Positions 2,014 to 62,735 of a DNA stretch of 64,000 bases are shown piece by piece. Position 1 is the stretch's first letter. Every line of letters begins with the position of its first letter. Source of the DNA: Tetradesmus obliquus (Eukaryota > Chlorophyta > Chlorophyceae > Sphaeropleales > Scenedesmaceae); the NCBI GenBank assembly GCA_030272155.1, contig CP126196.1:1984001-2048000 (forward strand). Direction: 5' to 3'. Below the pieces are notes generated by a model that saw only the letters and a list, made by a program, of their open reading frames with translations, was not told the origin of the DNA and did no database searches. The translations under genes were made by a program, and so were the position numbers.

Positions 2014-5000
2014 ATGGTGCTGGCCTGCCTCTGTGGCCAGGGCGACAGCAGCAGGTTGCTGGATGCTGCAAAACACGGGGACGTGCAAGCTGCCGTGTCT
2101 GCAATACAGCGGAAGCCGAAGGCGGCCCATGCTCAGCAATGGGGTGCGTGCCAGAACACGTAGCAGCAGCAGCAGCAGCAGCAGCGGCAGTAGCAGCAGA
2201 AGCCACATGAACAGCAGCAGCTTGACATCCACGGCACCGCATGCCATGTGGAACATGTGTGACTGCTACTGCACGCAAGGTGCAGAGCTGATGTCGACCC
2301 GACAATCAGCAACAGCTGATAAATTGTACTGCGGAACCATGACAGACAGCATGCAGCTTGCCGCAATCGAGCAGTCTGCGACTCGCAGCTCCTGCTGTTG
2401 TTGGATGTCGATCCTTTACGTTCACCCTTCACGTCCACCCGTTGCTCAGCCCGCCATGTTGCTCGCGCTTGCACTGGTGCTGGACCTGTCAACACAATCC
2501 GCAGCAGCAACATGCCAACCTGCGATGACTGTGCAGCTGAACACTTGCAATGCCACTGTCAGTGCAGTCAACTACGCAGTATCAACTCCCTCTGCCGCAT
2601 CCTTTGGAGGTTGCCGCATCCTCCACAGGAGCAGCGCCGTTCATATCCACCCTTCCACCGCGCCAACCTGCCCAGCTGACCACTTGTTGACCTGATTGTT
2701 GACCTGGCTGCTGTATCTCGCTCCGCCGCATTGCACTTCGCAAATGCCTCTGCTTCACACCTGATGTAACAAGCATTATTATGCTTACAGCCTTCTGCCG
2801 CACGAGTGAGTACTCATTATGTTGCAGTGTCCTTGTAATGTGTGACCTGCAAGTACCTTTTGTGCCGCACTGCTGCTTGCAGGAGGCCAGACTGCATGGC
2901 ACCTGGCAGCCAAGGAGGGCCACACTGCTGTCCTGCAAGCCATGGCAGATGCCATCCGCAGCCTGCCTGCCCTGCAGCTGAAGCAGCTGTCGCGCTTCGG
3001 CAGCAGCGCAGATGAAGTCATCACAAGGCTGGCTCAAGAGGAGGATGCAAAGAGCCTCACTCCGCTGCACCTCGCGTGCATAAAGGGCCGCGCAGCAGCA
3101 GCGGGAGTGCTGATGAGCTTTGGAGTCAACCCCTTTGCAATGGTGCGCAGCTGGGCAGGGCTTGGGTGGGACAGTGTTGGTGGTTGCTGCAGCTGTTGTT
3201 GGTGCACGCTCATGGGCTTTGGAGTGAACCCCTTTGCAATGGTGCGTAGCTGGGCAGGGCTTGGGTGGGATAGTGTTGGTGGTTGCTGCAGCTGTTGTTT
3301 TTGCACGCTCATTGGATTTGGGGTGAACCCTTTTGCCATGGTGCGTGCGGGACTGTTAGGGGGGCTAGCAGGGTTGTACGTTTTCCCTGCAGTGGTGTAT
3401 GGTGACAGTGGCTGGGGCAGCGATGGGGTGGGGTTGTGTGGCTGCTGCAGCTGCTGTTGGTGGCTGTTCTCGGGTGGGGCGGTTGCAGCGACAGCTCAGT
3501 GACAGGAGCACGGCTGGGGTTGGTAAGGTGTCACAGCCGACCGGCCATTGCCTGGGGTAGTTCTGGGTAGTTCTGCATGCATGCATGGCTGTTGAGGAGC
3601 AGCAGGCGTGCTTTGGGCTGAACCCCTTTGCCATAGTGCGTGCAGGGTCAAGTGGCTAGCTTGTAGGGTATCCGTGCAGTGGTGCATGGTGACAGCGGCT
3701 GGGGCAGGGATGGGGTAGTGTAGGGTGGCTGCTGCAGCTGCTGCTGGCGGCTGTTCTCGGGTGGGGCGGTTGCAGTGACAGCTGGTAACAGGGGCGCGGC
3801 TGGGGCAGGCGTTACAGCCGATCATCCATTGCTTGGGGTTGAGTATGCGTGCGTGGCTAGTGCAGGGCTGAGGTGTCCCTGCAGTGGTGCATGGCGACAG
3901 CGGATGCATGCGCCGTCACACATGCCGGGAATTTCTTGTCAAAGCAGTGTGTCAGGTGCTCACATTACGCGTGCTGCTCTTGCTCTTGCTCTTGCTCTTG
4001 CTCTTGCAGGATAGTGTGGGCCGCACGCCGCTGCATCACGCGGCCAGCTGGGGCCACGCCGACTGCATGCTGACCTCATGCTCTTGGTTTCATGAATTGA
4101 TTTAACTGCTTCGCCACCCGATCCTTGAGTTATGCATGCATAATCAGGACTGCAATTGGCTTGCACCTGCAGGATAGTGTGGGCCGCACGCCGCTGCACT
4201 ATGCGGCGAGTTGGGGCCACGCCGACTGCATCAACGCTGTGCTCAGCGCGCACACTGGCACACCCAAGCCCGAGTGGGGCGTGGCGTGGCCCAATGACGA
4301 GGACACACGGCTGGTGGATGTGCAGAACATGGCTGGCTTCACGCCGCTGCATTACGCGGTGTGGGTGGGGCGCAAGGAGGCGATACAGGTGGGCAAATGC
4401 ACACTATTCAGCAGAAACTTCGAATGTTCTGGCACATGATACAACGCCCCCACAGCATAATCTGGCGGCTAGTTCCTGCGCTTGTATGGTCTGCAGCCAG
4501 CTGTAAGCTGACTTGTGGTGGTGTAGCATGCGGCGGTCAGTTGTGATGGCGTGTTGAATCCTCTGCTTCGCCTTGGCAGTGCATGCTTTGTATGCGGCTG
4601 AAGAAACAGCTGTTCTGCCAGCAAACTTGCAGCCACCGCGGACACTTATTTTGTGACCTGCTTTGTACATTGTTGTGCGCTGCAGCAGCTGCTGGGCACT
4701 CTTTACCTCACCTGCTCAATACCCTTTGTGTGTGCTGCCGGCCCTGCAGGCGCTTGCTTCGTACGATGCAAGCATCAATGTCACCAACATCTCACACGAC
4801 TATGACTGGATCAAGGTAGGCGCATGTGGACTCTGTGCAGTTGAATACCACTTGTACGCAGAAGCTTAGCATCTTTTGTTGGGCTGTGCTCATTATTAAA
4901 TCAGAACACAAGGCGGTCTAAACATGATCTTCTGTTGTATTCTAATCAACTCATGCTGATCAAACAGGGGTAGCCCAGCAGGCTGTTTGCAGGCAGCAAA

Positions 5001-5851
5001 AGCAATGCGAAGAGCTTGTACGCATCTTCCCTGCTTGCTGCTTTACTGTGCAGCGTTGCCATCTCCCTACACCCCGTGATACTGATGCTGCCACGCACCG
5101 CGTTGTGCCACTTCTCGCATTGTTGCATATCTGCAGGTGGGCAGCGGCAACACGCCGCTGCACCTGGCTGCCTTTGGCGGCGACTTTGACGTGGTGAGGC
5201 TGCTGCTGGCGGCACACGTGCAGACGCTGTCGGCCGGCGCGGAGGTCATGGCGGCAGCACGCGGGCAGTGGGGCGAGCGGCATGCGGGTGCGTGTTTGTG
5301 CCTGTATGGCGTTTCTGCAGGCATTGCAAGAATTGGTGCTAGGTATGATGTGCACTGGGGCTAGCGGCATGCACGTTCGTGCTGGCGACTTGCGACCCGG
5401 CGTTGCTGGCGTGCGGCTGCGTGCTGTGGTTGTGCTGCACGTTCAAAAGTGACAGATGATGTATGGCATTCCAACTATTACTGGTGCTGCCACTGCTGCG
5501 GATGCTGGTGCTGACCGATCAGCTGCTTCTGCTGCTGCTGCTGCTTCCAGATGATGTGCGCCACATGCGCAACAGGCGTGGGTTGATGGCGTACCACATC
5601 GCAGTGCACAAGGGCTTCCAGCACCTGACAGAGCTGCTGCACCCAGACATACCGTGAGAATCTGCTATTTGGTGTGCATGTGATGTTCAAACAACGTGTG
5701 ATGGGTGTTCTATCATGTCGCAATGTCATTTCTTCTGCCACATACTGTTCTTCCAGCTACTTGTGTTCGGCTGCTTGCAACCTGAAAGGTGGTCCAGCAG
5801 CAGCTGCTTGTTCTTATGTGGCATCTAGTGATGCTGACATCTTGCTGCTGG

Positions 5852-24035: not shown

Positions 24036-25184
24036 ACATGGTTTGAGTGTCCCTCCCAACTCCACTGGAGCGTTCGGCGCAGCAGCAGCGCTTGCGGCTG
24101 CTGCAGCAGCAGGCATCTCCTTTGATGCGACCACCAGCGCTGCAGCCGCCAGCAATAGCAGCAGCAGCATGTATGGAGGCTTCGGCGGCGCTGCCGGCTC
24201 CGCTGCAGCAGCAGCAGCAGCACTTGGCAGCTCGCGGTGCGGATCAGACAGCTTGAGCCAGACTGCAGCCGTCACCAGCAGCCGTGCTGCTGCCACCCCT
24301 GCATCAGGCACAGCAGGATCAGCAGGTGTGAAGTGTGGTGAGGTTCCTACTCTTGCATCTGTGCAGTCTGCAGGTGCCAGCAGCACCACCAGCAGCAAGC
24401 TGGATAGCACATGCCAGCCTTTAGAAACCAGCCCCAGCGCTACAAGCGCACAAAGTGCGCCACCCTGCTTGCTGCTTGCAAGCTCGCAGTGTGAGCAGCT
24501 CATCAGCAAAACAAGCCAGCCGCTACAATCCACACTGTCCGCACCAGCTACCGGTGCGCTGCAGTCGTTGCTGGAGCAGCAGCAGCAGCTGGAGCAGCAG
24601 CAGCAGCAGCAGCTGCTGCTGCCGCCTGATATGGCAGCAGTACTGAGTGAGGAGCTGAATCGGCTGCGCATGGCTGCCCCGATGCTGTCACAGCTGCTGG
24701 GCCTGGGTTGCCTGACCCAGCAGCAGCAGCAGCAGGACGGGCCGGCAGCAAGCATGCCGGAGGCAGCTGCTGTGACTGACAGCAGTAGCAGCAGCAGCAG
24801 GGTAGCTGAGTTGGAAGCACAGCTGGCAGGCCTGCAGCGCGAGAAGGACTACTTGTCAAATGTGCTGCAGGTGAGGTCGGGGTGTGAACTTCACACTGTG
24901 AAGCAGTGGCTGATGCTTGCATGCTGCTGATGCTGGCACAATCTCAAGAGCGTGCTCACACTGCCTTCGCACACGTATGCATGCGGGCACTTCATCCCTG
25001 TAGAATGCTTCAACAACAGCTGTTGTTGGCTTCAACATCTGCTGTCGCTGCCTGCTGCTGCTGCTGCTGCTGTGCTGCCGTGTGCACCCGCAGGAGCGTG
25101 AGCAGCACTGCCAGCAGCTGTACGGCCAGATCTCAGCACACCAGAATGAACTCAGGGAGCTGAGGATGAGGCTGTCTCACCTGG

Positions 25185-25229
<45 letters not shown>

Positions 25230-25243
25230 GGCGGCCGCGGTGA
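20159..25243 (+). CDS. C2-domain protein with long Gln/Ala/Ser-rich region and coiled coil
   Basis: Nine exons (20159-20189, 20277-20315, 20431-20496, 20765-20838, 21163-21228, 21585-21710, 22773-22934, 23248-24870, 25094-25243) are phase-consistent and give 778 residues. Residues 1-134 form a plant-type single C2 domain (GLLQITLKSATDLYKHDLFG, PYCQVDCGKYRVKGKTCK, GGQNPTWNETLFF, LSKDAVIGSAVIPI), followed by LEFKGPTLTTFG. C2 domains bind membranes, often with calcium. Two usual Asp positions look replaced: GKQQPY instead of GKxDPY in loop 1 and FAEHQLSKD instead of a DxD in loop 3, so calcium binding may be lost. The rest is Gln-rich with a heptad-like part near the end (ELEAQLAGLQREKDYLSNVL, ELRELRMRLSHLEQ), suggesting oligomerisation. 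The short first exon was chosen because its donor phase and sequence complete the first beta strand. Confidence 0.85.
21655..22116 (+). repeat. Tandem copies of exon 6 donor edge (C2 gene)
   Basis: The end of exon 6 (coding LEFKGPTLTTFGQVGQ, donor GTGAGG) at 21660-21716 recurs at about 21768-21825, 21869-21926 and 22058-22115, with a short remnant (GGGCAGGTGAGGCGCGC) at 21989-22006. All keep the GTGAGG donor. Sequence divergence is lowest between the second and third copies. Confidence 0.9.
22893..23014 (+). repeat. Copy of exon 7 donor edge (C2 gene)
   Basis: GGCAGCTTCACTGCAGCACAG followed by a CAG run (22893-22934) is repeated at 22969-23014 as GGTGCTTCCACTGCAGCACAG plus a CAG run, in the next intron. 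The intron also has a second pair of direct repeats (CACTGCAGGTGACTTGGC, at about 22333 and 22466). Confidence 0.8.
23995..24035 (+). repeat. Coding (CAG)n poly-Gln tract
   Basis: About 13 Gln codons in exon 8 of the C2 gene, nearly all CAG. Read on the other strand it is a long Leu/Cys/Ala run without gene character. Confidence 0.95.
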
Positions 25244-27940: not shown

Positions 27941-27990
27941 GACTCTCACGGCAGTGAGTTGTGGCTTAGTTGTTGTACTCAGTTTGTTGT

Positions 27991-27991
27991 A

Positions 27992-28025
<34 letters not shown>

Positions 28026-28026
28026 T
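27991..28026. repeat. Heptamer repeat (CTCAGTG)n
   Basis: Five consecutive CTCAGTG-type units, with degenerate copies (GTACTCAGT) on both sides from about 27976 to 28040. Confidence 0.85.
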
Positions 28027-37274: not shown

Positions 37275-37300
37275 TCACAGGAAGAAGGCCTCCTCCTCCT
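37095..37300 (-). repeat. Copies of the stop-codon end of TIC110
   Basis: The last codons and stop (plus strand GCCTCACAGGAAGAAGGCC, 37273-37291) recur at 37191-37209 and, as GCCTCACAAGAAGAAGGCC, at 37099-37117. Units of about 80-95 bp also contain CTTCTTTGCTGCC and a CTG run. The copies lie downstream of the stop in transcription direction. Confidence 0.9.
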
Positions 37301-42200: not shown

Positions 42201-45200
42201 GTGATGCCACCTCCGGGGTGATGCACAGGATGCGCCTGATGCGGGTGAGCTCCTGCTGTTCCTCGCTGCTCAGCTTCTTCTTGGCCACCAGCTGCTGCAG
42301 CTTGGTGCGGTACAGCTGCTTGTGCAGCTCAGCGGCAGCCTGAGGGCTGTAGCCGCTCTTCTCCACCAGCTCGCCCAGCAGCTGCAATTTGCCACAAAAA
42401 GGTGAAATAACATGTTATGTGACAAGTTATGCCATGTTGGGTTGTGTTGATTGCAGTTATGATCAAAGCAAGTACAGCTGCTTGTGCAGCTCAGCGGCAG
42501 CCTGGGGGCTGTAGCCGCTCTTCTCCACCAGCTCGCCCAGCAGCTGCAGTGCAAAGTAAAATTGAGTTCCTGTTTAGAGACAGGTGGGTCCTGGCACCAT
42601 CCTAGGCGGGTATGAGGTTTGTTGAGTTGTGGGTCAAGACCCGTCAGGTGATTCAAATGCTATATCAGGTGGCATCAGCATTAGCAGGGGACTTGCGCAC
42701 CTGATGCTTGAGGGTCATTTCCTCTTGAACCCACCCCATTGCGCATGCCGGTTCAGACCATCACGACAAATACAGACAGGTGAAAAGTTAGAGCCGGCCG
42801 CCCACCTGCGCTGGCGATGCTGCCGCGTCCAGCCGCCTGCTCGCGCAGCAGCAGCTAGCCACTCCACACAGGCCACCATGCCACAAGCCCTGCTATCACC
42901 CAATTTTGTGTAGCACAGATCAGGCTGCACAACACTAACACAGCCTCACGCAGGTCTCCAGCAGCACACGCGAAGCTGCTCCTGCTCTTCACCCCACTTG
43001 CACTATGCGTCAAACAAATGTGTAACAAACGCCGCCCACCTGCACTGGCGATGCTGCCGCGTCCAGCCGCCTGCTGGTGACCTCCTCGCGCAGCAGCCGC
43101 TAAGCACCCCACACAGGCCACCATGCCACAAGCCCTGCTATCACCCAATTTTGTGTAGCACAGATCAGGCTGCACAACACTAACACAGCCTCACGCAGGT
43201 CTCCAGCAGCACACGCGAAGCTGCTCCTGCTCTTCACCCCACTTGCACTATGCGTCAAACAAATGTGTAACAAACGCCGCCCACCTGCACTGGCGATGCT
43301 GCCGCGTCCAGCCGCCTGCTGGTGACCTCCTCGCGCAGCAGCCGCTAAGCACCCCACACAGGCCACCATGCCACAAGCCCTGCTATCACCCAAACTTGAG
43401 TAGCACAGATCAGGCTGTGCAACACTGACACAGCCTCACGCAGGTCTCCAGCAGCACACGCACAGCTGCTCCTGCTCCTCACCCCACTTGCACAACGCGT
43501 CAAACAAATGTGTAACAAACGCCGCCCACCTGTGCTGGCGATGCTGCCGCGTCCAGCCGCCTGCTGGTCACCTCCTCGCGCAGCAGCCGCTTGTAGAGGC
43601 CGCCCGCGATGCCGCTGCGCACCTCGCCCGCCTCCTTGGCCCCCAGGCACAGCACGACAGCTAGCTCCTTCAGGTCGGCCTCGATCTGGGGGTTGAAGCG
43701 GCCCTCACGGCCCACCACCTCCTCAGCATACACCCTGTGAGCAAAAGTGGCAAAGCAATGGAAACAGTGGCACGGTGAGACCTTCCTGATTGGCTACTGC
43801 GCAGCCGAGTGAGGTGCGCCAGGAACAGTGAGAATGAGAGAGCCAAGGGCACCATGCAACCCAATTGATGCAGTACGGGAAGGTTGAAGGTAGGGTCTGC
43901 AACTATCACAATGATCCATGGTTGTCGATGTATACAGCGCTCACTTGAAACCTCATTACCGTCGCAACGGCCCACGTCCCAGGCCCACTGGGCGCGTCAC
44001 ATCACCCCCCCATCCATAACACACAGCTAGGTTTGCGTAACACACAGCTAGGTTTGCGTGCACAATGAAGCAGCGTCCTCACTTGAAGACGTCCTTGACG
44101 TCCCTCTCCGCTGGGCGCGTCAGATCACCCCCCAATCCATGACACACAGCCAGAACTGCGTACACAACAAAGCAGTGCCCTCACTTGAAGACCTCCTTGA
44201 CATCCCTCCAAACCTACAATCTAAATGCATAAAATCAAGCCAAACAAAAGATGTGACATCAATGCTGCCGCTCACTGGAAGACCTCCTTGGCGTCCCTCC
44301 TCCTGCTCTCCACGTCCCGGGCCCGCTGGGCACGTCACAGCACCCCCCAATCCATAACACACAGCTAGGTTTGCGTACACAACAGCCCGGCCTCCTCACT
44401 TGAACACCTCCTTGACATCGCGCCGCCTGGCCTCCACGTCCCACGGCCCGTTGTGGATGCTGGGCATGCCCAGCCCGGGGATGAGGTCGTCGTCGTTGGC
44501 GAACTTGGCCATCTTGCGCGCATAGTCCAGCACGTGGCTCAGCGTCTGCAGGACACACATTTAAACAAACAAAGGTTTGTGGATAGCACATTCGGAGCAG
44601 CAGTTGCTGATAGGCCTCAAGCCGTGATGGCAGGGGGTTGAGTGTGCGGCACAGCGCGATGGTGAGGCATCATGCTTGGAGGGATGCAGTTGCAGGTGCT
44701 GAACAATGCTGGCAGGCATGGCATTCAACAAGGGCACTCACGCAATAATAATTCTGCTTGTAAGGCAACAATACAACATGCAGCAACTGCCATTCACACG
44801 CACAGGAGCGACTGGTGCTTGCAAAAACCCTGCTGCCCTGGCACAAGCACGAAACCACATAGACACCCAGACGCACAGCACAGCAGCGCACCTCCACAAC
44901 TGCTGCTGGGTCGCGTGCCTTGCCCGGGCTGCGTGCGATCTCCACTGCGCGCTCCAGGCTGGCCTCCACCTGCTTGCGGCTGGCCTCGCGCACGATCTCC
45001 TCCGCTGACTCATCAAACAGCTTGATGGCCAGCTGGTAGTCGCGCAGCTCACGCAGGAACTGCCTGTTGGTTTGTCATTGAGTTATTTTGTTGTTGCAGG
45101 AAAGCGGAGCAGGACAGGAGGCACACATGGTTGACGTGGGCACGTGGCTGTGAGTTCAGCAGTAACCAGCCATGCATATATAGTCGCCAGGCAAGCAACC

Positions 45201-48200
45201 GTTTGCCGTGATAAATATTTCAATCTAGTGCATGACGTTGGCTATGACTTTAAATGCAGCCATGCGCAGCCTAATGCGCCAGCCGCACCTCTCAGCAGGG
45301 AACTCGCCGCCGCGTGCCGCCAGGTGTCCCTGGAAGATGGCGCGCGCATTGTCGCGGCGCGCCACAAACAGCTGCGCGTCTGTCAGGTTGAACACGCGGC
45401 GCCACGGCAGCAGGAACGCCGCCTTCTGCTCCCCAAACACGATGTAGCTGAGGTACACCAGCCGCTGGAAGGCCTTGCGCTGCTCAAACTGGGACTGCCT
45501 GCGGGGTTTTGGAAGTTTGAACAGAGTTTTAAGAGGCACGGTGACACGATGCTTTTGGTAGCACTGAGGTGAGGTACACAGCGTGACACAGCATCTACAC
45601 CGCAGTGTTGTGCGTCCCCCATGCATGCAGTGCGTAAGCTGAACCCCTAAACCTCTGAACCTCTGCCCTGCCCAAAAACCTCGGCCCACCTGTCCTTGTA
45701 TTCAAATCCGATGCGTGACAGGCGGCGCCCAACCTCGATGTGCACCGGGGCAGCGTCCTCGTCGCTGAGGCCCAGCACGTCCTTGAACACGCGCACCTTG
45801 TTGGCCTCGTCACCGCTGCAGCAAAAAATAACACATTGTGAACGTCAAAATGACAGAGATGACGGTTATTTATGTTCTTACGGTCAGCAAAGGTGTGTAA
45901 GGCTCTCAAGGCGCCAGTGGCAGATGATACGACAGATGATTGCATTCACAGCAGATGTCGCTGACACGGTGTCAAAACATAACATGTCACATAACATATG
46001 TCACATTGTTACTAACACTCACGTCAGCTGTGCGTCTGCCACTGGGATGATGGTCTCCAGGTACTGCCCGTACACCTTCTGCAGGCCCTCCAGCTGGTCC
46101 TTGTGCATGTTGATGCCGTAGCGGGAGCCAATGGCAGTCACGTCATCCGGCTGCAGCTCTGTTGGATCGTCCAGCTGCAGACAGGTGCAGAAAGGGCAGG
46201 ACAGTGAGCGGTGTTCAATATGCGGGTATGTTGATGCCGTAGCGGGAGCCAAAGGCAGTCACGTCATCCGGCTGCAGCTCAGTGGGGTCGTCCAGCTGCA
46301 TAAGCAACATTGAAACAGGAGCATTATGTCGGCGATAGATGATGGTAGCGGGAGCCGCTGGCAGTCATGTCATCCGGCTGCAGCTCAGTGGGGTCGTCCA
46401 GCTGCAGAAATTGGGCGGCATACTCCGAGGACTTGAGTATAGTGTATGGCTGTCAATTTCAGTGGCTGTCATTGATTAAGACAGAGGGGCAAGGTGTGAG
46501 CGGCAAAGTTCAGTTGCTGCCAGTGCTGCTAAGGCAGCTGATGAAAGGGATCTTCTGGCCTTGCTGCGATAAAGGCTAGCCGGGCTGGCGGATGCTGCTG
46601 CTGGCCTGCCTACTGCCCTGCCTGCCTGCTGCCCTGCCTGCTGTCGTCCACGCCAACACCACACTGCCACAATGTAGCTGTACAGGTCAATAAATGCTGC
46701 TTGTAGATGGAAGCATCCGACGCCAACCCCGGCCGTGACCCTTAGACCCTTGAACTCTCACTGGCTAGAACCCTCAACCCACAGCCATGCCACAAACCCC
46801 ACCTCCACAATGTAGTTGTACAGGTCAATCACTGCTGCTGAAGGATGCAAGCATCACATATCAGAAACAAATTATCATCATAAATCCTGCCTGCTGCTAA
46901 GCCAAAACCCTACCTCCACGATGTAGTTGTACAGGTCGATCACTGCTGCGCCGTCGCGCTTCTGCTTGGCCTGCACGCCAGCGTACACCACGCCAGCAGC
47001 CACTGCTGCACCGATCACAGCTCCCACAATGGGCCGCACATCAGGCGACACTGCAGGAATAAGAGGCAGGCAAATACGCAGGTGCGATGAGCATGGCGTA
47101 ACTTGAGCAGGCTTCATATGCTGTGTGTGTGCATCAGTCAGGCATCATCACGACCCTGCTGTGGCGCGGTCTTTGCCACTGCATGCTCTGGGACGCCGGC
47201 AGGGAAAGCTGCGCAGGTGCATGCTAGCTGCTGCAGCAGCAAGGAAGGGCTGAGGTGTAGCAAGCTGCTGCAGGCACCTGCGAATCCTCCTGTGTGGCAC
47301 ATGCGTGCTGCGGCAGCTGGCACCGCATAAGCGCAGCTACCTAGCCTGCCCTTGTTGCATTGGCTTCAGGTCTGCAGCGCCTGCTGTAAACTTGCAGATG
47401 TGCTGAGCATGCACATGCTGCAACCTTTTCTGCTTATACACCGCAGTGACATAGCTGTGACATTTACGTACCATTGACGCGCGCACAGCTGCAGCCATTA
47501 CTACCGTGAGCAGTAATTAGCATGAACCAGCTGCTGGGGTTGCACATGCCGGATGAAACAGTGCCATGCCTGCTTCTACTGCTATGCATATACACAGCTG
47601 TGAAGACTTGGTGTTTTGCTGCGCTGCTCTGTACGTGCTAAATACAGTGTTATTAGCTGTTTCAACTAAAGTTTGTGCCTCACCAGGCAGGCCCCTGCCA
47701 ACAGTGTTGCCCATCATGCCAGCAGCTGCTGCCAGTGCCAGCACACCAGGGTAGAACAGAGCCAGGGGGATGCTGGCCAGCGTCTTTGTGTTGGGGTCCA
47801 GGGGAAGGGGGTAGGGGAAAGGCTTGGTGCTCTCCTCAGTTGTGGGGATCTGCAGGACAGCAGCATGCATGCGGTTGCACTGTCAGGCCCTGGCCTGCTG
47901 CTGCGCTTGCTGCTGTTGCTGTCCTGCAAGCTGCAATCTCATCCTGCTGCTCTGCTGCTTGCCAGGGCTAAGCAGCTGGCATTACAGCATATGGGAATTG
48001 GCGAGTTTACGTAGCAATTGGCTTCGTACTGCTGCTGCGGCGATTGCTGGTGTTCCCAGCAAGTGTATGAAGTTTGCATGGTGGGCTAGTCTCGCTGCTG
48101 CCATTGGCGCGCACTGACCTCGAAGGTCTCCACCACATCTGCCTCCACTTCCGGTGCCTCAGGTGCTGCAGCCCTGGGCACCACAATGCGTGATGCGCTC

Positions 48201-51527: not shown

Positions 51528-53438
51528 ATGAATCAAGCACCTCAGGATGCCTCAAACGTTCGTGATGAAATTGTTCTTCCCAAGGACACGGCGCAGCTGC
51601 GTCAGGCTATAGCAGACAGCTTTGCTGCTGGGGTTTGCTGCCCTGATGGAGCTCCAGGCAGGGCCAGGCCACATCAGGTTTGTGGCAGGCAGTGGCAGCA
51701 TGGCACAGCCTGGGCAGAACAAACAACACCATACCAGCTTCTAACTTGTATAATGCTTATTTAAACAAGCAAAGACAATCAATTGCACCTGCTTTCAGTT
51801 GTGGCTGCACTTCTTCCCCAGCTGTCATGCATTTGCAGCACTTGCCCAAGACATCACCGGTTGCAAACTTCAACTGCATGCTGCACCTCTTATATGCTGC
51901 TGCTGCTGCTGCTGCTGCTGCTCCTTCTGCTGCTGCTACCAGGTTGACGCAGTGGTGCAGCTGGTGCAAGCTGTGGCAGCTGACAGCGCAGCAGCAGCAG
52001 CAGCTGCGCCAGCCGCATACCTGCTGCAGCACTCTGCAGGCAGCGGCAAAAGCCTCACCATTGCAGCGCTGGCTGCTGCACTGCTGCGGACGGTGAGCCA
52101 AATTTCTTGTTTCTGCTCTGCAAGCTCGCAAGCTCAAATGCTGAGTGCATGGCTAGGTGCAGGTTTGGTGATTGTGTCAGCATGCGCAGCGGCAGCGGCC
52201 CTGAACGCCTCAACATGGCAGCATCAAAACATTGGGCTGCTGCAGAGGTAGCCACGTGGCTGCCATCTATCTTGCAGGCACTGCTGGGTGGAGTCAGTGT
52301 AATATAGATGGCAGCCACGGGCGACCTTGGGTGCCTTCTAGCCTAACCCTAGCCTAACCCTAGCTTAACCATCCTAACCCTTGGGCGTGGCTGCCATCTA
52401 TCTGTGTGTGCATCATCACCAGTTCGAAAGCTGGGAAGCATGTCACAGCCGGTGGCACATCAATGGCTGCTACCTGCGCATCAATTAATCCCACACATCT
52501 CGTTTTGGCCGGTCCCTTGCTGGCACTCCTGTCATACGCAACAACTCACGTGCCTGTTCACCAGCTGTTCACACCATTTTCATGCCTGTGTATATCTGCA
52601 TGTTTTTGGATACACACTTGCAGGAGGATGCTGGGCGCCGCCGCTTCCACACTGTGCTGGTTGTCAATGACAGGCTGCAGCTAGACCAGCAGCTGGGCCG
52701 CACAGTGGCAGCCTTCATGCAAGGTGCGCTGCTGCTGCTGCTGCTACTGCTGCTACTGCTGCTGCTGCTGTTGCTGTTGCCTCAGCAACTTTTGACATGC
52801 GTGTCGCATCTGGAGCAGACACCCACTAGAGGCAGCAGTGTGGGCAGTGCGGCGCTGCACAGCAGGGCAGGTGCATGGAAGTGAATTAGGCTGTGTGAGC
52901 AGCCACAAGCGACTAGTCACCCAAAGTCTATGTTCAGCTACTTGTCTTGCTTGGTGTAGCCTCCCCCTTGTCTTGTACATTCAGGCACATGTGGCGCACA
53001 CTCCCGCAGGATTTCCCAGCCTGTCAAGCTTTTTTTGTTGCCGAACCTAAGCCTCCTCACACCGTCGCACCTTGCAGGAAACGGCTTTCCTGCAAGTTTG
53101 GTTGCACGTGCCGGCAGCAGCAGCCAGCTGCGCACCTACCTGCTCACCCCGCCAGGCACCCCCGGAAGGCCAGCCGTCATCTTGACGACTATTCAAAAGC
53201 TCGGAAGCCTGTGGCGCAGCGCTGCTGCTGCTGGCACTGCTGCTGCAGAAACCTTGGACGCAGCAGATCGCGGCGATCTGACACTTGCGGCCGCTCAGGC
53301 TGACTCAGCAGCAGGCGGGGCTGATCTGTCCACTGTGCTGGGTAGCAGCGGCCGGGTGGCTATCATTGCTGATGAGGCGCACAGGCACCATGACAGTCAC
53401 ACAAGCGAGCAGATCTCTGACATCCTAGCAGCAGTGTT

Positions 53439-53479
<41 letters not shown>

Positions 53480-53485
53480 CTGGTG

Positions 53486-53534
<49 letters not shown>

Positions 53535-53766
53535 GCAACTGGTGATCAGGAAGAAGTCTGGGCTTGCTGCCAGTAGAACCGCAGCAGCAGCAGGCGGCAG
53601 CAGCAGCAACCTGCAGTTGCTGCAGCAGCAGCAGCAGCAGCAGCAGCAGCACTATGTGACGTACTTTGGGTTCACTGCCACGCCAGGCCCGCGTGCCCTG
53701 CAGCTGTTTGGCGTTGCGCGTCAGGTGCAGGTGGATGTGCTGGGCCAGGTTGTGAATGATGATAAG

Positions 53767-53799
<33 letters not shown>

Positions 53800-54771
53800 G
53801 GTGATGGTATTCGTGCTCAGGCCAGCACTCCCACAGTTGCAGCAGCAGCAGCAGTGCGTGGACGCAGCGATGCTACTGCCCAGCAGCAGCAGCAGCAGGC
53901 TGCTGCAGCAGCACTAGAGCCCCACATGGCACCTGCTACCCTATACACCCCTTTCCACTGCTACAGCTTGCAGCAGGCTGTAGCAGACCGCCTCGTGCTG
54001 GATGTGCTACAGCGCTTTGTAGCTGTCACGCCTCGATTTGAAATCGCAGGCCTGCAGCTCAGCCGCCAGCAGCAGCTGCAGCTGCAGCAGCTAGATGCTG
54101 CCAGCAGGGCGGCACAGGGTTCAGGCGGGGCTGCTGGCGCTGGGGTTCAGGGCGGTTTAGCGGGGCGGCTAAAACCTGGCAGTGCGAGGGGCAGGGCAGG
54201 TGATGATGCTGGACTGCAGGGGTTGCTGCATGTGGTAGGGAAGAAGAAGGCCCGCAGAGCTGCTGCTGCTGAAGCTGCTGCCGCCGGCCGCACTGCAGCA
54301 GAATCATTATCAGCAGCAGTTGCTGATAGTAGTAGTAGCAGCAGCAGCAGCTCACTGGCCGAAGGGTTGCTGGTGCAAGCAGCAAGCAACAGCCGGCAGC
54401 TGGTTGCCACAAAAGCAGAGGATGTTGCGGGCCGGTTTTTAGCAGCGTGGGGAGAGGCGGCCAGCTGTGGTTTCACGGGGTTTAGGGCGATGCTGGTGGT
54501 GCGATCACGGCAGCATGTGGTGTGGTACTGCCAGGAGCTAAGGCGGCTGCTGAGTCGGCAGCGGCAGCAGCTGCAGCAGCTGCTGCAGATGTCAGGTGGA
54601 GCTGGGGGCTGTGGCGAGATGTGCTGCTGCATATAAAGCAAATATGATGGCAAGCAAGCATGCTGTGTGCTTCAACATGTTCAGAAGGTCATTCACATTC
54701 AGACCATGGCTGGGCACAACCAGCATAAGGCCACTATGCTCGATGTCACACCGTTGGTGCCCCTCCTCATG

Positions 54772-54807
<36 letters not shown>

Positions 54808-55136
54808 CTTGAATGTGCCTCCTTTGCCACACTGCAGGTGACCCATTGGACCTGGCAGCAGCCGAAGCAGCAGCAGAGGGTGACCTGTCACCACTGGTGT
54901 ATGGAGCCTTCAGCGGCACTGTGGATGTGTCAGCAGCAGAGCAGCAGCAGCTGCGGGACCCCCGTGCTGCTGCTGCTGCTACCGCTGCAAGCGCCGCCAG
55001 GAAGCGCAGCAGCAGCAGTAACTTGGCGGCTGGCAACGGCAATGAAGCAGTTGCTGCTGCTGCTGCTGCTGCTGGCAGCAGCAGGCAAGGCATTGGCCGG
55101 GCTAGCAGTGGCTGGGATGCTGCCTTGGCTGCGTTT

Positions 55137-55185
<49 letters not shown>

Positions 55186-56722
55186 GTGAAGATCAGCAGC
55201 AAGGCCAGGCCAGCATCAGCAGAAAACGGACCAGGGAGGACATAGCTTCTGCCGCTGCTGCTGCAGCAGCAGCTGATGTCGAAGGCAGCAGTCGCAGGAG
55301 CAGCAGCAGGATCAGTAGCAGGAGCACCAGCAGCGGAGCGAGCACCAGCAGCACCAGCAGCGGCAGCAGCAGCGAAGAAGGCAGCGACTATGCAGCTGGT
55401 AGTGACGCAGCAGAGGAAGGCTCTGAGAGTGAGGCAGAGCTGATTAGTGACAGCAGTGATGTCAGTAAGGATGCAGCAGCTGCAGGGGGCGACAGTGATG
55501 GCTTGGGTAGCAGCTGGGCGATTGCGGAAGATGCTGCTGCTGCTGCTGCTGCTGGGGGTGGAGCTGCAGCTGAACAACAGCAGCAGCAGCAAGCCGGTGG
55601 TGGCATGGATGCGGCAGCGCCGAAGCGCAAGCGTCCACGGAGGGACAGCAGCACACTCTCCTGCAGCACCAGCGGCGCAGCAGCTGCGGCAGGTACAGCA
55701 GCAGGCACGGCAGCTGCTGCTAGCACCTCACAGCAGCGCCAGCCAGCAAATTTGCAGTCTACAGATGCAGCAGGCTCAGCAGACAGCGACCCGGAGCAGC
55801 CTGCTGCTGCTGCTGCTGCTGCTGGTAGTGAAGAGGAGGAAGCAGAGGTGTACCAAGTACCTGTGTCGGAGCGTGATTTGAATGCGCCAGGGTTCAGCCA
55901 TGCTGACGCACGGCTGCTGGTGGTCTGCAGGTGCGGGCCTTGCACAACGGCTTCTTGGCTATTAGGAATCACGCTGCATCATGCATAGCACACCTGCTGT
56001 CAGCGGTCACATGAACACAACAGTTGCAGTGCTAGCAGTCACATTGTTTTTATTTGATGCATGGCATGCTGTTCAAACCTCAGAGGGTGTGTGAGAGCTG
56101 ACTCATTCGCACCCGCATGAAAGATGTCAACTGTCACTCTATCAGCGGGTAGCCTGCCAGCAGCAGTGTCATGACGTGCCTGCACTTGGCGACTGATGCA
56201 TGGCCTGCTGCCAGCAGCAGAAGTGAGAGCTACAAACAATGCTGTCTGCTGCGTTCGTTGCCCTGCTGCAGCAAGTTTGAGACTGGCTATGACGATCCGC
56301 GCCTGGGGGCCATGTTTGTGGACAGGTGGGCTGCGGCTGTGTCTGTTAGCCTTGTGTTGGCTCCTGGTAGGGTCTCTCTCTCTCTCCTAAGTTTAGCTGG
56401 TTTTGACGTTGTGGACAGGTGGGTTGAGGCATGCAGCGCTGCTGAAACTGCTGGCGGCTGCTCATTGGTACTGTAATATAGTGTTAGCGCATGCTGCGCC
56501 TGTTTGTTGCAATGATGATGGTTGCCTGCCGTGCCACAGGCCAAGGCAGCCGCAGGGATGTACTCAACACCCAGTATAGTTCCTGTTTGCCACTGTACTA
56601 CGTATGCCGTGTATCAATCGCTGTTGCTGCTGCTGCTGCTGCCCCCGGTGCAGGTCGCTGTCTGGTGCCCGTGCCGTCCAAGTGCTGGGCCGGATCAACA
56701 GGCCCGCGCCCTGCAAGGGCCT

Positions 56723-56760
<38 letters not shown>

Positions 56761-59012
56761 GTGAAGGTGGCCAAGCAGCAGCAGCAGCAGCAGCAGGGTT
56801 CAGGGTGCTAGTGGTGGACTTTGTCAACAGTGTGGGAGCCATACGGGAGGCCTTCTCGCAGTTCTACGGGGCCACAAGCTTCTGCACAGGTAATTTGCTG
56901 GCTAGATAATTGTGCAGTTGTTGTGGTGGCTGCCGCTCTGATGCTACCAGTGTGCTGGCAGAAGTGCCTTGCTGCTATCAGCTTCTGCACGGGTGGCGCA
57001 TCGCTGGGTTGTTTTTGTTGTGCGGTTGTGTAGTGTGGTGGCTGCCTCTCTGCTGCTGGATGCTGCGGCTGCGCCAGCATCAGGCCCTTGTTCAGGCCCT
57101 CACCCGGCTGCTTGAGGCCATGCAACAGCTCAGCAACATTTGTGTGTTGTCAATTTGACATGCTGCAGGCAGCCAGGCCAAGCGGCTGCGCCAGCAGCAG
57201 GCCCTTGATGAGGCCCTCACCCGGCTGCTGGAGGTGCTGCAGCCCGCAGCAGCACGCCGGGCAGCAGCAGCAGCACTTGCGGCACGCCTGCAGCAGCAGC
57301 AGCAGCAGCACGGTGCAGCTGGCCGCACTGCTGCTGCGAATGCACCTGCTGCTGCTGCGGGGGGTTTGGCGGCGCTGAATGTGGGTGAGGTGGCGGTGCT
57401 GGTGGGCCAGTTGGCACCTGAGCTGCAGCGGGCAGTGGAGGATGACCTGGCGGGCTACTGCAGCTGCTGCATGAAGCTACGGTGAGCATTGTGCTGATAC
57501 ATATAGTATACTGTTTAGTCATATTGCGCTGGCCGGGGGTCAGCGGCAGTGGAGGATGACCTGGCGGGGTACTGCAGCTGCTGCTTGAATCTGCGGTGAG
57601 CATGACATCTACTGCTCGTTATCACAGCCACCTCGCATGCGCCTGCATAATTGCCCGGTGTGCAGGTTGTTGATATTTGCGCGTCATTGGCGCCCTGTGC
57701 GGCTGAGCTGTCATCGTGCTGGGAGGTATATCCTGTCTTCTGCTGCCTGCTGCTATGTTCATCGCCGCTTTTGACTTCTATCACCGATTGACTTCTATGG
57801 TGCCTATCCTGCTGCCTCTGACGCCACTGCTGTCTGCAGGCTTGAGAGGCTTGAGTTCCCCTATGTGTTTGCAGCAGCGCTGCAGGCGGAGCTCACTGCA
57901 CGCCGCCAGCAGCGCGACAAGGCAGCCAGCAGCGGACGCTTTGGATGGATGGAGCGCCTGACAGCAGCAACACCAGCAGCAGCAGCAGCAGCAGGTGCTG
58001 GCGCTGGTGATGACTCAGCAGCTGTGGATGCTGACAGTCCAGGTCAGCATCTGTCACTTCCAGCAGCAGCCGCAGCAGACGCATCGGCAGCTGCAGCAGC
58101 TGCACCATCAAGTGCTGCGTCCAGGCTCCAAAAGGGTCTTACAGGAATATCAGTCAATGTAGTAGAGCTTGAGGAGACTTTTGCAGGGCCTGTGCGGCTG
58201 GCTGCTGCTGACTCATACCGCCCCCTGGCAGGCACTGTAAGACTCAGCAGCCACTTAGCTGCTGCCGGCGCTACTGCTGCTGCTGCTGTCGCTGCTGCTG
58301 GGATTGGCAGCGCAGCGCAGCAAGTGAAGTCTGGGCGGCCGCTGCATGAAGTGATAGCAGCAGCAAATGCGCAGCTGGCTGTGAGGTTCAGGCGGCAGGC
58401 TGCATCAGGGTTGAGGGAGCTCTGTGAGAAGCTGCAGGCAGGAGCAGGGGCAGGGGCAGCAGCTGCAGCTGGTGGCAATCAAGGTGCTGCTGCTGCTGCT
58501 GCTGGTAGTGGTGGTGGTGGCACAGCTGCAGCTGCAGCTGGTGGTGCTGGTGCTCGATCTGCAGCTGATGCCGGTGCAGCTGGCCTTGGACGTGCTGGCA
58601 GCGGCGAGGAAGCAGCAGAGACTGCAGCAGCAGCAGACGGCGATGACGATGGTGACGTGTACGCAACGCTGTCGCTGCTGCGGCGGCTGCAGCTGTGGCC
58701 TGTGACAGCAGAGCTACTCAAATCCACAGCAGCAGGCAAGCAGGTGTCCAGCTTAGCTAAGAACCACCCTAGCCAGATGGTGCGCAGCTTGGCTAGCCAG
58801 GTTGTTGCACAGTGGAAAGCCCTACTGGCTATGCAAGCTGCTGCTGCCAAAGCAGCAGCAGAGAAGCAGGCAGGGGAGGGAAAGGCAGCAGGCAAGGGTG
58901 AGAACAGCAGCAAAGGCAGCAAAGGGGCAGAAGGGGTGATAGAGGCGGGGCTGAGGAGTAGGGTGGCAGTCATGATCAAGGATGCCCTGATGGAGCATCG
59001 AGGCAAGGTCTT

Positions 59013-59072
<60 letters not shown>

Positions 59073-59928
59073 AGACGGTGCTGCTGCTGCTGCTGCTGTC
59101 AAGGCCAATGTTCCTGCAGAAGAGGTCCCCAAGCTGCAGGCACTGGCACAGCAGCTGGAGCAGGAGCTGCACAGCCACATCCTCAGCAGCAGCACCAGCA
59201 GCAGCAGCAGACACGCAGCAGCAGCTGCTGCTGCTGCTGCTGGTGGTGGCCGGCCCGGTTCAGGCAGCAGTGGCAGTGCAGTGGCTGACTACAAGAGGCA
59301 GGCGCGCATGCTGTGCACCGGGCTGCGCTACCCTGACGGCATTGCACAGGAGCTGCTGGCAGGATCAAGGGCGCCCAAAGAGGTGATCATGGCACACTTT
59401 TTGTCATTTGTCTGGTAGATGCACTTCACCTTGCATATCGGGTTTGTTTGTTGAACGGACGTGCTGTGCACTGGGCTGCGCTACGCTGACGGTATTCTTA
59501 GGGAGTTGTCAGCGGGTCGCCATTCTACACGAGCAGTCACACTCGAACGCAGTTGTGCTGCCGTCTATGATTCAAATCCTACGCTTCACTATTCACCAAT
59601 ATACATAACTGTTGTGATAACTATACTAATATCGTTTGTGCAGGTGGTTGGCCTGGATGCGCTGTCGCTCGCGCCAGCCGCAGCGCAGCAGGCGCTGCAG
59701 CGCCGCCGCGAGGAGCAGCGCCGCAGCGAAGCAGTGTGGGAGCAACTCATGTCAGACAGTGTAGGGGGCGGCGGCACACATGTGGTGCAGACAAAGTGCC
59801 CGCAGTGTGGCCATGGGAAGGCGCAGGTGCATACGATCCTGAGCGGCGGCACGTATGCGCAGGAGCGGGAGACGATCCAGAAGTATGTGTGCCAGGGGTG
59901 CAACTTCACGTGGCGCAGCGATAACTGA
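51528..59928 (+). CDS. HsdR-like SF2 translocase fused to TFIIS
   Basis: Ten exons (51528-51677, 51799-52092, 52624-52723, 53078-54595, 54838-55930, 56272-56325, 56654-56889, 57169-57481, 57840-59382, 59644-59928) are phase-consistent and give 1861 residues. The first two thirds carry motifs of type I restriction R subunits: Walker A QHSAGSGKS (129-135 core), VLVVNDRLQLDQQL, VILTTIQKL, IIADEAHRHH (DEAH 280-283), YFGFTATPG (~378), LVVCSKFETGYDDPRL, VQVLGRINRP (~1079) and VVDFVNSVGAIREAF. No N-terminal nuclease was found. From about 1525 on come TFIIS domain I (LRRLQLWPVTAELL ... LASQVVAQWKALL), domain II (YKRQARMLCTGLRYPDGIA) and a Cys4 zinc ribbon (KCPQCG ... VCQGCNFTWR). A Pol II-linked translocase is inference. 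Long Gln/Ala/Ser runs separate the parts. TFIIS might also start separately at the ATG near 57948. Confidence 0.8.
51895..51945 (+). repeat. (TGC)n tract read as poly-Cys within exon 2 (helicase gene)
   Basis: The frame between LWLHFFP and VDAVVQLVQAV stays open through a TGC run and would code about 12 Cys. Elsewhere in the window such runs are intronic and abut acceptors (here CTACCAG at 51943-51949), but no in-phase donor was found, so the run may truly be translated or the upstream exon may be mis-set. Confidence 0.6.
52255..52401. repeat. Inverted/direct 16-bp repeat around telomere-like motif, in intron
   Basis: CGTGGCTGCCATCTAT occurs at 52255-52270, in inverted form at 52304-52319 and directly again at 52386-52401. 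The second and third copies could form a hairpin whose loop (52340-52380) is GCCTAACCCTA-type repeats. The whole lies in the intron after the Walker A exon. Confidence 0.85.
53448..53530 (+). repeat. Coding (CAG)n: poly-Ser then poly-Gln (helicase gene)
   Basis: Two long CAG runs in different frames follow the DEAH motif, coding Ser (AGC) and then Gln (CAG). A third (53620-53650) directly precedes YVTYFGFTATP. They sit in loops between helicase motifs. Confidence 0.9.
54775..54808. repeat. (CCTG)n tetranucleotide repeat
   Basis: About eight CCTG/GCCT units in the intron between the 53078-54595 and 54838-55930 exons. Confidence 0.95.
56960..57240 (+). repeat. Exon-edge copies in the intron between exons 7 and 8 (helicase gene)
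   Basis: AGCTTCTGCACGGGTGG (56979-56995) repeats the donor edge of the previous exon (56877-56893). GGCTGCGCCAGCATCAGGCC through ACCCGGCTGCTTGAGG (57067-57117) repeats the acceptor-side part of the next exon (57183-57233). Confidence 0.85.
57430..57605 (+). repeat. Copy of exon 8 donor edge (helicase gene)
   Basis: GCAGTGGAGGATGACCTGGC through CTGCAGCTGCTGC and CGGTGAGCAT (57432-57490) recurs at 57545-57603 with about four changes and a functional-looking GTGAGC donor. Confidence 0.95.
59015..59070 (+). repeat. Coding (CAG)n, about 18 Gln codons, in the TFIIS part
   Basis: An uninterrupted poly-Gln run sits inside what corresponds to TFIIS domain II, between HRGKVL and KDGAAA. Confidence 0.95.
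59308..59520 (+). repeat. Copy of exon 9 donor edge (helicase-TFIIS gene)
   Basis: CATGCTGTGCACCGGGCTGCG with the following TACCCTGACGG (59308-59350) recurs at 59459-59513 as CGTGCTGTGCACTGGGCTGC, diverging at its 3' side. Confidence 0.9.
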
Positions 59929-61099: not shown

Positions 61100-62735
61100 C
61101 TACTGGTACCTGTACCCCAGCGCTGCCACGTACACCACCAACATCACACCAGCCACTGCCAACCCCCACAGCACCAGCTGCAGCCGCTCCTGCCGTCTTG
61201 ATTTGAATTGATATAACAGCTGCCCAAAGAACACCAGGCAGCTCACGTCGCCTGCCACCAACATGACATCTCGCGCATTCACGGTGTGAACTCCCGGTAT
61301 GAACAGCCCCCACAGCACTCGCTCTTTCAGTGCTAACGATATGTGCACGCAGTTTACGGCGAGACCTAGCAGAGGGCCTAGCGGCTGTAGGTCTTTGAAG
61401 TTGCTTCTGTCTAGAAGCTGGTAGATCAAGTAGGCTGGCAGCAGCTCTGTGAGCTGGAAGAAGAGCTGGGAGGGCAGCATGGTGTAGAACCTGTCGTTTA
61501 TGTAGTTCCAGGTGGCCCACGCGCCCTGCAGGGATAAAATGGCAGCAGTAAGAGTAGCAGCGGCAGCAACGGCAGACGTCAACAGGTGCGCATGGTCCTG
61601 GGTTGCTGGTAGTGCACGACCACACCTGCGCTGCCTTAGCTGCGTGGCATGCTATGAAGTATAATCAGAATTCAAGCGTCAGCAAAGCTGGACCCCATGC
61701 CAACAACTCACGTAGAACAGTGGGTAGAACGACAGCAGTGCTGGCACCAGCGCTTGATAGCTCAGCCGGCCAGCCCTGAACAGCAGCAGTATGCGCTGCA
61801 TGGCCACCCCCAGCGCGTTGACCCACACAAAGCTCCAGCCGCACAGCAGCACTGTGGCTGCCTCGAGATTGAAGTACACCGACTTGTAGCCTGCAGGAAT
61901 GCGGCGTGCACTTGTTGCCTGTTACAGCATCTGGTGTGACTTGAATAGCAAACAGCTGCGCGACTTTGGCATCCAAGCGGCAACTGCTGCTGCTGCTGCT
62001 GCTGCAAGTGCAACGAGGCTGACGTAGGTAGCAGCACAAGAAGGACACTGCTGAAGTGACAGTGTCGTCCGTCACAGATAAGCGTACTGCATGTGTTGCA
62101 TATGCTGCACAAAGGATGGCATCCCTTCCTGCTAGCAGTATGCCACAGCTCACAGCACACACCACTATGCTGCTCCTTTAATGCCATGGCTGCTTCAGCT
62201 GCTGACTCTGAATTAACATGCATCCTGCAATGGTACGCTCTCGCGGGACAGTCCTGCAAGCATCTCAATGAACAGGCCTATTGTCCTGCAAGCATTACAA
62301 TGAAGGGGCCTAATGCCCTGCAAGATTGACAGTGAAGAGTCCTAATATCCTGCAAGCATTGCAATGAAGAGGCCTACCTCCTGCTCCATGTCGCCCCTTG
62401 AAGCGCCCATCCCAACAGTCACACGTGCACGTGTCCCTGTCTACTGCTTTGCCCTCGCCTGCCTCTACTGATGTAACATATATGCCCAAGCACAGCACTG
62501 CCACGGGTACCAGGGGTGCCAGCAGCACGCCTAGTCCCCACAGCATGTGCCATGCTAGCTGCTGCGCTCCTGCTGCACCAGCAGCACTGCCCAAGGGGCT
62601 AGCCCTAGCTGTTGTGTCTGCTGCTGATGGCTTGCCCTGGCTGTCTTCGTCTGCTTCTTCTATGTGGGAGTGCACTGGCAGCAGATCCTGCTGGCTGCCG
62701 GACCCTCGCAGGAAGGCCGGGAGCGTTTTCCGCAT
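61100..62735 (-). CDS. Multi-span membrane protein, family not recognised
   Basis: Three minus-strand exons (62735-62378, 61890-61712, 61525-61100) are phase-consistent and give 320 residues. Residues 1-60 are acidic and polar (HSHIEEADEDSQGK), then a first span (MLWGLGVLLAPLVPVAVLCL), a short loop with three Cys and CWDGRFKG, and further hydrophobic segments (TVLLCGWSFVWVNALGVAMQ; ALVPALLSFYPLFYGAWATW; LFFQLTELLPAYLIYQLL; DVSCLVFFGQLLYQF; LVLWGLAVAGVMLVVYVAAL), about six to seven spans in all. The motif GYKSVYFNLEAATV and NYINDRFYTMLPSQ look like conserved landmarks. No signal peptide or catalytic motif is evident, so the membrane is unknown. Transcription is toward the convergent helicase-TFIIS gene. 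Confidence 0.7.
62250..62377 (-). repeat. ~36-bp repeats starting at the donor of intron 1 (membrane protein)
   Basis: Reading the minus strand, the intron opens with GTAGGCCTCTTCATTGCAATG then CTTGCAGGA, and this unit returns three more times, slightly diverged, down to 62250. Each unit starts with a donor-like GTAGGCC or TTAGGCC and ends with CTTGCAGG, an acceptor-like word. Confidence 0.85.

Follow-up and report, generated by a model that had tools for sequence, protein, structure and literature searches.

Exon-edge copies in introns and 3' flanks at a Tetradesmus obliquus locus and elsewhere in its genome

Copied edges in the window

A 64-kb stretch of the Tetradesmus obliquus genome (contig C6, positions 1984001-2048000; hereafter the window) contains genes whose exon edges are repeated in the adjoining noncoding DNA. 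We find 27 edges with copies, in 23 separate regions, counting predicted exons of at least 90 bp and searching on the intron side only; a sequence-only reading of this DNA had put the number at about 25, and its statement that the copies include the junction itself is borne out in the window. They belong to an ankyrin-repeat gene, to one at 21.6-22.1 kb, to a mitochondrial-carrier gene, to the Tic110 gene on the minus strand and to a helicase/TFIIS-like region, with names taken from Pfam matches. Tic110 is a chloroplast envelope protein, and the host is thus a plastid-bearing eukaryote.

Together with 24 sampled 10-kb stretches (one at 1 Mb on each of the 17 contigs, three at 3 Mb and four at 4 Mb), the window makes up a sample of 304 kb from a genome of 104.66 Mb, with contigs of 3.1-11.1 Mb, a GC fraction of 0.569 and not a single N over the 304 kb. 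The published T. obliquus genome is 108 Mb with 57% GC, and its mean intron of 462 bp is the longest among the five algae tabulated there (PMC5966456). Exon models came from a simple two-strand hidden Markov model (HMM) gene finder of our own with fixed splice-site models, run without transcripts. It is rough: it merges genes, overcalls introns, such that much intergenic DNA is labelled intron, takes some stop-codon ends for donors, and labelled part of 142 of the 210 copies as exon. Low-complexity bases were masked before counting, exons shorter than 90 bp were dropped from most tests, and one sampled stretch with large arrays (L020) from the edge tests.

On the plus strand, the donor edge at 3165 of the ankyrin-repeat gene (region 3075-3640) is followed by copies at 3208-3264, 3317-3345 and 3610-3640, and the acceptor edge at 4173 of an ankyrin-repeat exon (4010-4262) is preceded by a copy in the upstream intron at 4010-4068, with a spacer (4069-4172) that matches only itself in the genome. 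The donor edge at 21710 (21620-22109) has copies at 21762-21818, 21871-21918 and 22056-22109, and a 67-base query from this edge matches the genome only at its four places. Within the mitochondrial-carrier gene, the acceptor edge at 32096 (31966-32157) has a copy at 31966-32027, and the donor edge at 32301 (32211-32681) has three, at 32393-32429, 32463-32552 and 32645-32681 (100%, 98% and 97% identical), spaced 128, 123 and 129 bp apart. Further along lie an acceptor edge at 33066 (32826-33155), copied at 32826-32892, and a donor edge at 33264 (33174-33408), copied at 33350-33393. The 3' end of the carrier coding region, including its stop codon (34199-34484), is copied into the 3' flank at 34347-34484; the gene finder mislabelled this end, at 34289, as a donor, the stop being read from the sequence. 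That stop-codon ends are copied too, as had been claimed, holds for this case (34230-34484) and for one in a sampled stretch (L009), also read from the sequence.

Tic110 lies on the minus strand. Its donor edge at 38133 (37679-38222) has copies at 37990-38053, 37841-37905 and 37696-37759, spaced 143, 149 and 145 bp apart; two of the 27 window edges (37963 and 38052) delimit a copy that was itself predicted to be an exon. At the donor edge at 38715 (38590-38804) the copy at 38591-38623 is identical in 33 of 33 exon bases, and its spacer (38624-38699) finds only itself in the genome. The acceptor edge at 40030 (39940-40272) has copies at 40101-40152 and 40230-40272, at spacings of 122 and 120 bp and each with its own pyrimidine tract, and the copy at 40540-40610 of the donor edge at 40685 (40539-40774) shows three differences, all synonymous. 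Single copies accompany the acceptor edge at 41815 (41725-41920; copy 41883-41920) and, in diverged form (79.5%), the predicted donor edge at 42199 (42087-42288; copy 42088-42131). The acceptor edge at 42381 (42291-42543) is copied at 42472-42543 with 71 of 72 exon bases identical and a different pyrimidine tract, and the spacer between (42387-42471) is again unique to its locus. An array with a 245-bp unit follows the donor edge at 43530 (42797-43619), with copies at 43290-43346, 43045-43101 and 42806-42841 (97-98%), the outermost with an unrelated flank. The donor edge at 44400 (43972-44489) has one diverged copy (44278-44328), and two more stretches, near 44108-44209 and 43985-44106, are related to it; copies of the acceptor edge at 46174 (46084-46409) lie at 46228-46295 and 46340-46401, and those of the donor edge at 46914 (46666-47003) at 46803-46838 and 46667-46700. 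When the copies are left out, the Tic110 domain gives a single Pfam match (profile positions 47-574 of 574, 585 bits); with them included it is broken into four stretches scoring 516 bits. The copies in this gene therefore lie outside the protein.

In the helicase-like region on the plus strand, the acceptor edge at 57169 (57065-57258) is copied at 57065-57117, the donor edge at 57481 (57391-57603) at 57541-57595, and a predicted donor edge at 59382 (59292-59496), where the gene model is uncertain, at 59462-59496 (35 bp). The predicted gene at 52624-59928 contains a match to a SWI2/SNF2-type ATPase just below the Pfam cut-off, a Med26/TFIIS helical bundle and a cysteine-rich C-terminus that looks by eye like a zinc ribbon; it is possibly two genes merged by the gene finder. 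Weak or low-complexity cases in the window are the regions 37109-37368 and 53443-54409 and the edge at 31916; the first of these is a weak predicted donor edge at 37279 on the minus strand, whose copies (37198-37259 and 37110-37170, 81-82%) lie in repetitive, coding-like sequence.

Spread of the repeats and preference for exon edges

Self-comparison of the window after masking of low-complexity bases gave 50 direct high-scoring segment pairs, each within 3 kb, and no inverted or distant pairs. Over the whole 304 kb there are 274 direct repeats and five inverted ones, with none of either kind in the chance control, for which every sequence was dinucleotide-shuffled once. Offsets are commonest at 100-160 bp and rise a second time near 240-260 bp, and pairs at offsets of 40-700 bp are present in 16 of the 24 sampled stretches and absent from eight. 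Of 146 first-order pairs, 36 are aligned along 0.9 or more of their unit. These direct, local, head-to-tail copies, in two or more, are tandem genomic duplications in the general sense. Template switching, which the sequence-only reading had suggested, is rejected as the main route, because its ordinary kind should give inverted copies as well and these are nearly absent (five of 279 repeats). Two sampled stretches differ in character: L020 (C16:1000001-1010000) has large tandem arrays, possibly coding, that extend for several kilobases with offsets near 274 and 351 bp, and L021 (C17:1000001-1010000) has repeats 4282 and 8564 bp apart and holds four of the five inverted repeats.

Intron-side copies accompany 119 edges, of which 64 are donors and 55 acceptors, in a set of 354 predicted exons no shorter than 90 bp; there is one copy at 68 edges and two to seven at 51. 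They form 85 separate exon-edge regions spanning 33 kb of the 304 kb, of which 23 are in the window and 62 in the 23 sampled stretches tested (230 kb, L020 being excluded). This confirms that exon-edge copying is real and extends beyond the window, and local direct duplication does appear to be the general genome habit that had been proposed; extrapolation from the sampled stretches would mean some 25,000-30,000 edge regions genome-wide.

The preference for edges was measured with 60-bp queries against 600 bp of target outside the exon, a local score of at least 46 counting as a copy. Copies were found for 83 of 562 edge windows and for 15 of 402, 3 of 239 and 0 of 159 successively deeper exon windows; the same test gave 70 of 1455 for intron windows and 0 of 93 for intergenic ones. 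Duplication is thus not equally frequent at mid-exon or intronic positions; equal frequency there would have made the preference an artefact. Reversed targets gave no hits, and reverse-complemented targets one hit in all compared with 171 direct. The ratio of edge to intron frequency is 3.1, whereas simulations give 0.51-0.69 when duplications are placed uniformly, those inside exons are removed, selection acts on the true exon and the remainder drifts, and the preference is therefore not merely one of attention or survivorship. Repeat coverage is likewise maximal on the exon side of the junction (0.19 at donors, 0.15 at acceptors), compared with about 0.10 in the exon interior and, on the donor side, 0.02-0.06 at intron depths of roughly 150-300 bp.

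Counted over whole units, the pairs comprise 56 edge, 29 exon-intron, 41 intron-only and eight exon-only pairs. Under the whole-unit null, one-edge pairs should form 0.362 of the one-edge and intron-only pairs together; among the 28 pairs with at least 0.85 of the unit aligned, 18 span one edge, seven are intronic and three include two or more borders. A null built on the aligned segments (53 one-edge pairs compared with 24.9 expected, and eight exon-exon pairs compared with 15.6) was judged too generous, because the true unit exceeds the aligned part. The three cases with two or more borders agree with the earlier remark that whole exons are rarely copied, and the material does not resemble tandem exon duplication or mutually exclusive exons. 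Two sampled loci, L010 232-823 and L017 5602-5972, may be true exon duplications, with predicted exons of 141 bp and 81 bp, both multiples of three.

Edges are thus favoured, as proposed, but duplication does not strictly depend on a splice border and is not restricted to edges: two stop-codon ends are copied, and 44 of 138 first-order pairs are intron-only. As to the proposal that copies run outward from the exon, among the 222 edge-spanning rows, which include L020 and arrays in which the predicted exons are copies, the partner lies on the intron side in 140 and not in the other 82.

Array layout and divergence of the copies

The arrangement seen most often is edge-(spacer-edge)n-unrelated intron. 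Spacers in many families are stable in length and near-random in sequence, while the edges remain about 88-90% identical, and successive spacings agree to within 10 bp in 24 of 37 families, compared with 6.7 in permutations (the same array can contribute more than one family). Copies match the true edge at an identity of about 0.90 in their exon part, of 0.86-0.97 in the six intron bases nearest the junction and of 0.71-0.82 in the nine that follow; identity is higher again (0.87-0.89) at 81-140 bases, a distance reached by long arrays only. A near-nascent example is seen in one sampled stretch (L022), in which a 137-bp unit over an acceptor is aligned for 196 bp at 100%; here two copies and the true acceptor are separated by two identical spacers of about 86 bp, and the outer flank is different.

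The flanks of the copies fall into two main kinds. When the intron next to one edge copy is compared with that next to the following one, the two are no more alike than unrelated introns in 34 of the 55 families with a single copy, in 24 of the 56 internal comparisons and in 22 of the 30 outermost ones, and clearly homologous in 16 of 55, 25 of 56 and 3 of 30, respectively, with seven internal and five outermost comparisons in between. A simple picture of tandem copies laid outward, as first proposed, is therefore incomplete. In the least-diverged unrelated-flank copies (39 of 62 were examined), the homologous part reaches 26-140 bp into the exon and only 1-18 bp into the intron, and no residual identity was seen in unrelated-flank copies beyond about 15 bases past the splice consensus. 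Copies less than 3% diverged include both kinds of flank (eight and nine), which argues that one is not simply an aged form of the other. For 22 pairs of internal spacers that look unrelated near the junction, a distant likeness can still be detected (mean z 2.35, p=3e-5); in such arrays, then, the spacers look like old relatives that have become far diverged, the edges having remained alike.

The earlier expectation that divergence rises with distance did not hold up. Ranked outward from the exon, copies have mean identities of 88.9, 88.1, 86.0, 87.6, 84.2, 87.4 and 78.4 (n=51, 51, 21, 10, 5, 3 and 1); in 26 of 51 families the copy closest to the exon is more similar than the most distant one, so that any fall in similarity with distance is slight at most.

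The 47 copies with homologous flanks behave like neutral tandem duplicates, with a synonymous share of differences of 112/239 (0.469) against about 0.43 expected (p=0.13). A synonymous test on strict pairs had given 210/369, which a more sensitive search weakened to 602/1254; the split by flank then located the bias in the copies with unrelated flanks. Nonsynonymous divergence is equal in the two classes (0.061 unrelated, 0.063 homologous), and 14 copies with intermediate flank scores, outside the two-class comparison, have 35/74 synonymous differences. Splice dinucleotides are intact in 63 of 71 copies, and copies called noncoding contain 10 stops compared with 11.6 expected if neutral.

Origin of the edge copies

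We tentatively favour a composite origin, in which local duplication across edges is followed by expansion through unequal exchange, and some unproven process, be it gene conversion, haplotype exchange or splicing function, maintains the similarity of the edge copies. Short stretches, with a spacing mostly of 100-160 bp, would be duplicated locally and directly, probably through error-prone repair of breaks or of replication. Duplications spanning a single edge would be tolerated, as the copy adjoining the exon keeps a good splice site and the other lands in the intron. With two edge copies in place, unequal exchange could multiply the unit of spacer and edge into the layout described above. 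Selection would hold the true exon while the edge copies are re-made similar to it, by short gene conversion or exchange, perhaps with other haplotypes, and the spacers between them drift freely; the edge copies would thus persist and stand out, and introns lengthen by arrays bearing putative decoy sites. Gene conversion from the exon is our first choice for the homogenising step, though it predicts a lower synonymous share than is seen.

Several observations weigh against this account. The 83 copies with unrelated flanks have a synonymous share of 276/486 (0.568, p=7e-10; rows are partly non-independent, as several copies can serve one junction), which differs from that of the homologous-flank copies (Fisher p=0.014); gene conversion alone is rejected, as by our own reasoning it should give a share of about 0.43 or less. 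Differences between copies are also rich in synonymous changes (495/996 overall; 36/75 among sampled copies called noncoding, p=1e-4 against 0.274), which is not expected from the drift of unused copies alone. Stops number 16 compared with 23.5 expected in copies partly called exon, and none occurs in 763 codons of the window copies, albeit with a gene finder that forbids stops within exons. In acceptor copies with unrelated flanks, the pyrimidine tracts equal the true ones in strength (T 0.357 and Y 0.609, compared with 0.226 and 0.486 at random intron CAG; p=5e-7 for T), which selection on use would also explain. Lastly, spacers are only weakly similar to the outer intron (mean z 0.62, n=52, p=0.015), and the seeds may therefore not be plain tandem duplications.

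A more specific form of the homogenising step, which we regard as possible but rather doubtful, is an exon-anchored concerted evolution, with the conserved edge acting as a master copy that rewrites its own intron copies. Introns would then grow and fill with putative decoys that renew themselves, the exon-like part of each staying young and the intervening DNA turning over completely.

Plain random tandem duplication with survivorship seems an unlikely explanation of the whole pattern. It supposes that exon-internal copies are purged, that edge and intronic copies survive and decay neutrally, and that edges are special only through the conserved exon. The rarity of exon-internal copies follows directly, the homologous-flank copies fit neutral decay, and in the 29 pairs aligned on both sides the exon and intron divergences (0.083/0.135) are near the estimated neutral ratio of about 0.6. 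In those same pairs, however, gaps number 6.2 per kb in exon parts and 26.1 in introns, under the half expected, and the observed edge/intron ratio is far above the prediction of 0.5-0.7. Random duplication also predicts alignable flanks wherever the exon difference is at most 3%, yet nine of 18 such copies are not above the 95th percentile of the null, and it does not yield layouts of edge, spacer, edge and unrelated sequence.

Unequal exchange between diverged haplotypes is likewise improbable as the chief cause. Here the copies would come from different alleles, with introns unlike from the start and each splice site authentic, which accounts for the synonymous excess in the unrelated-flank copies and for authentic-looking pyrimidine tracts at both copies. 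It does not account for wholly different introns: synonymous divergence in the unrelated-flank copies averages 0.228, at which the introns of such close alleles are expected to be alignable, and several copies are identical across 31-54 exon bases and still have unrelated flanks.

It is less probable still that the copies are functional, serving as alternative or decoy splice sites that regulate the host intron, with selection keeping the edge, the splice site and the pyrimidine tract. Such a role would suit the largely intact splice dinucleotides, the strong acceptor tracts, the synonymous bias both from exon to copy and among copies, and the lack of stops in the window copies. Against it, stops in copies called noncoding are at the neutral level, stop codons are followed by copies too, offsets show no preference for multiples of three (32/41/37 over the three phases for partial units, 13/10/13 for full units), and donor copies with unrelated flanks keep GT in 0.81 of 52 cases with a weaker consensus (4.21 of 6 compared with 4.79 in true donors). 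The stop count in noncoding-called copies and the offset phase also speak against coding constraint as the sole cause, which we have rejected, although other copies may still fit it.

An assembly artefact, through collapsed or misjoined haplotypes, is very improbable; the synonymous-biased differences are allele-like, but the sequence has no N and comes from long contigs, the spacing is regular with up to seven copies, copy ages range from 0 to more than 20% divergence, and repeats occur in most of the sampled stretches. Mobile introns (introners) or another element family with long target-site duplications would make edge-spacer-edge resemble an insertion between direct repeats, but can be set aside almost entirely, as all four spacers searched match only themselves in 104.7 Mb and the repeated exon parts beside unrelated flanks range from 26 to 140 bp.

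Tandem genomic duplication is a known kind of event, and has been proposed as a route of intron gain (Rogers 1989; Gao and Lynch 2009; Hellsten 2011; as cited in PMC3443670 and PMC4974935). As described there, it resembles what we see in being local, direct and within genes, in involving splice-site sequence and in that the protein can stay unchanged; it differs in that a duplicated exonic AGGT gives rise to a new intron, whereas here the edges are copied into introns and 3' flanks that already adjoin them, without need of a new intron. Birth of new introns by AGGT was not what we found in Tic110, where the copies are intronic and the Pfam match without them is uninterrupted (one gene by Pfam, the others by sequence only), and the homology of unrelated-flank copies stops near an existing splice consensus on one side. 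The potato RdRp gene, in the account of PMC4974935, is similar in that a tandem duplication over an acceptor copied the 3' end of an intron with the 5' side of an exon and the splice signals were inherited, but is a single case that gave a new intron and extra exonic mRNA sequence, in contrast to many edges per 100 kb, multi-copy arrays and, in Tic110, copies outside the protein. Break-repair insertions of 10-1000 bp may be tandem, partly tandem or copied from within 200 bp of the break (rice, Vaughn and Bennetzen, in PMC7407515; CST-Pol alpha tandem duplications, PMC8355091); the offsets and direct orientation of our repeats agree with this, while the passages in question describe neither an edge preference nor an array layout, both of which are present here. 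Polyubiquitin genes with dual-specific splice sites (PMC10809524) also bear serial splice sites on tandem copies, but according to that report each repeat is a coding monomer and the sites are in use, whereas here the copies are intronic and their decoy role putative. Introners add introns and intron DNA genome-wide, mainly in fast-evolving lineages such as green algae, by element copies across many genes (as outlined in PMC9860276); here copies are local, and one copied edge and four spacers each matched a single locus, in searches that skip very common words. A 2021 Chlamydomonas comparison refers to conspicuously long introns in that group with no known advantage. Among the papers listed by full-text searches of the open-access literature, none has a title or abstract opening that describes such a density or layout.

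These copies touch on two questions: how introns can become longer when transposons play no part, and how a gene copes with decoy splice sites in dense arrays. Exon borders seem to gain noncoding DNA through local duplication on a large scale, and this may be one route of intron growth. If it is true that the exon rewrites its edge copies, this would be an unrecognised form of concerted evolution, and if the copies are used they would provide a natural test bed for splice-site choice. Annotation is affected either way, given how many copies the gene finder took in part for exon.

Elsewhere in the window, a 28-bp minisatellite of eight units (93% matches) lies at 27714-27941 and has no recognisable tie to an exon edge. 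Many in-frame CAG/GCA runs give Ala, Gln and Ser tracts throughout the window, and the segment at 13163-14200 matches the catalytic domain of alpha-1,6-fucosyltransferase (FUT8).

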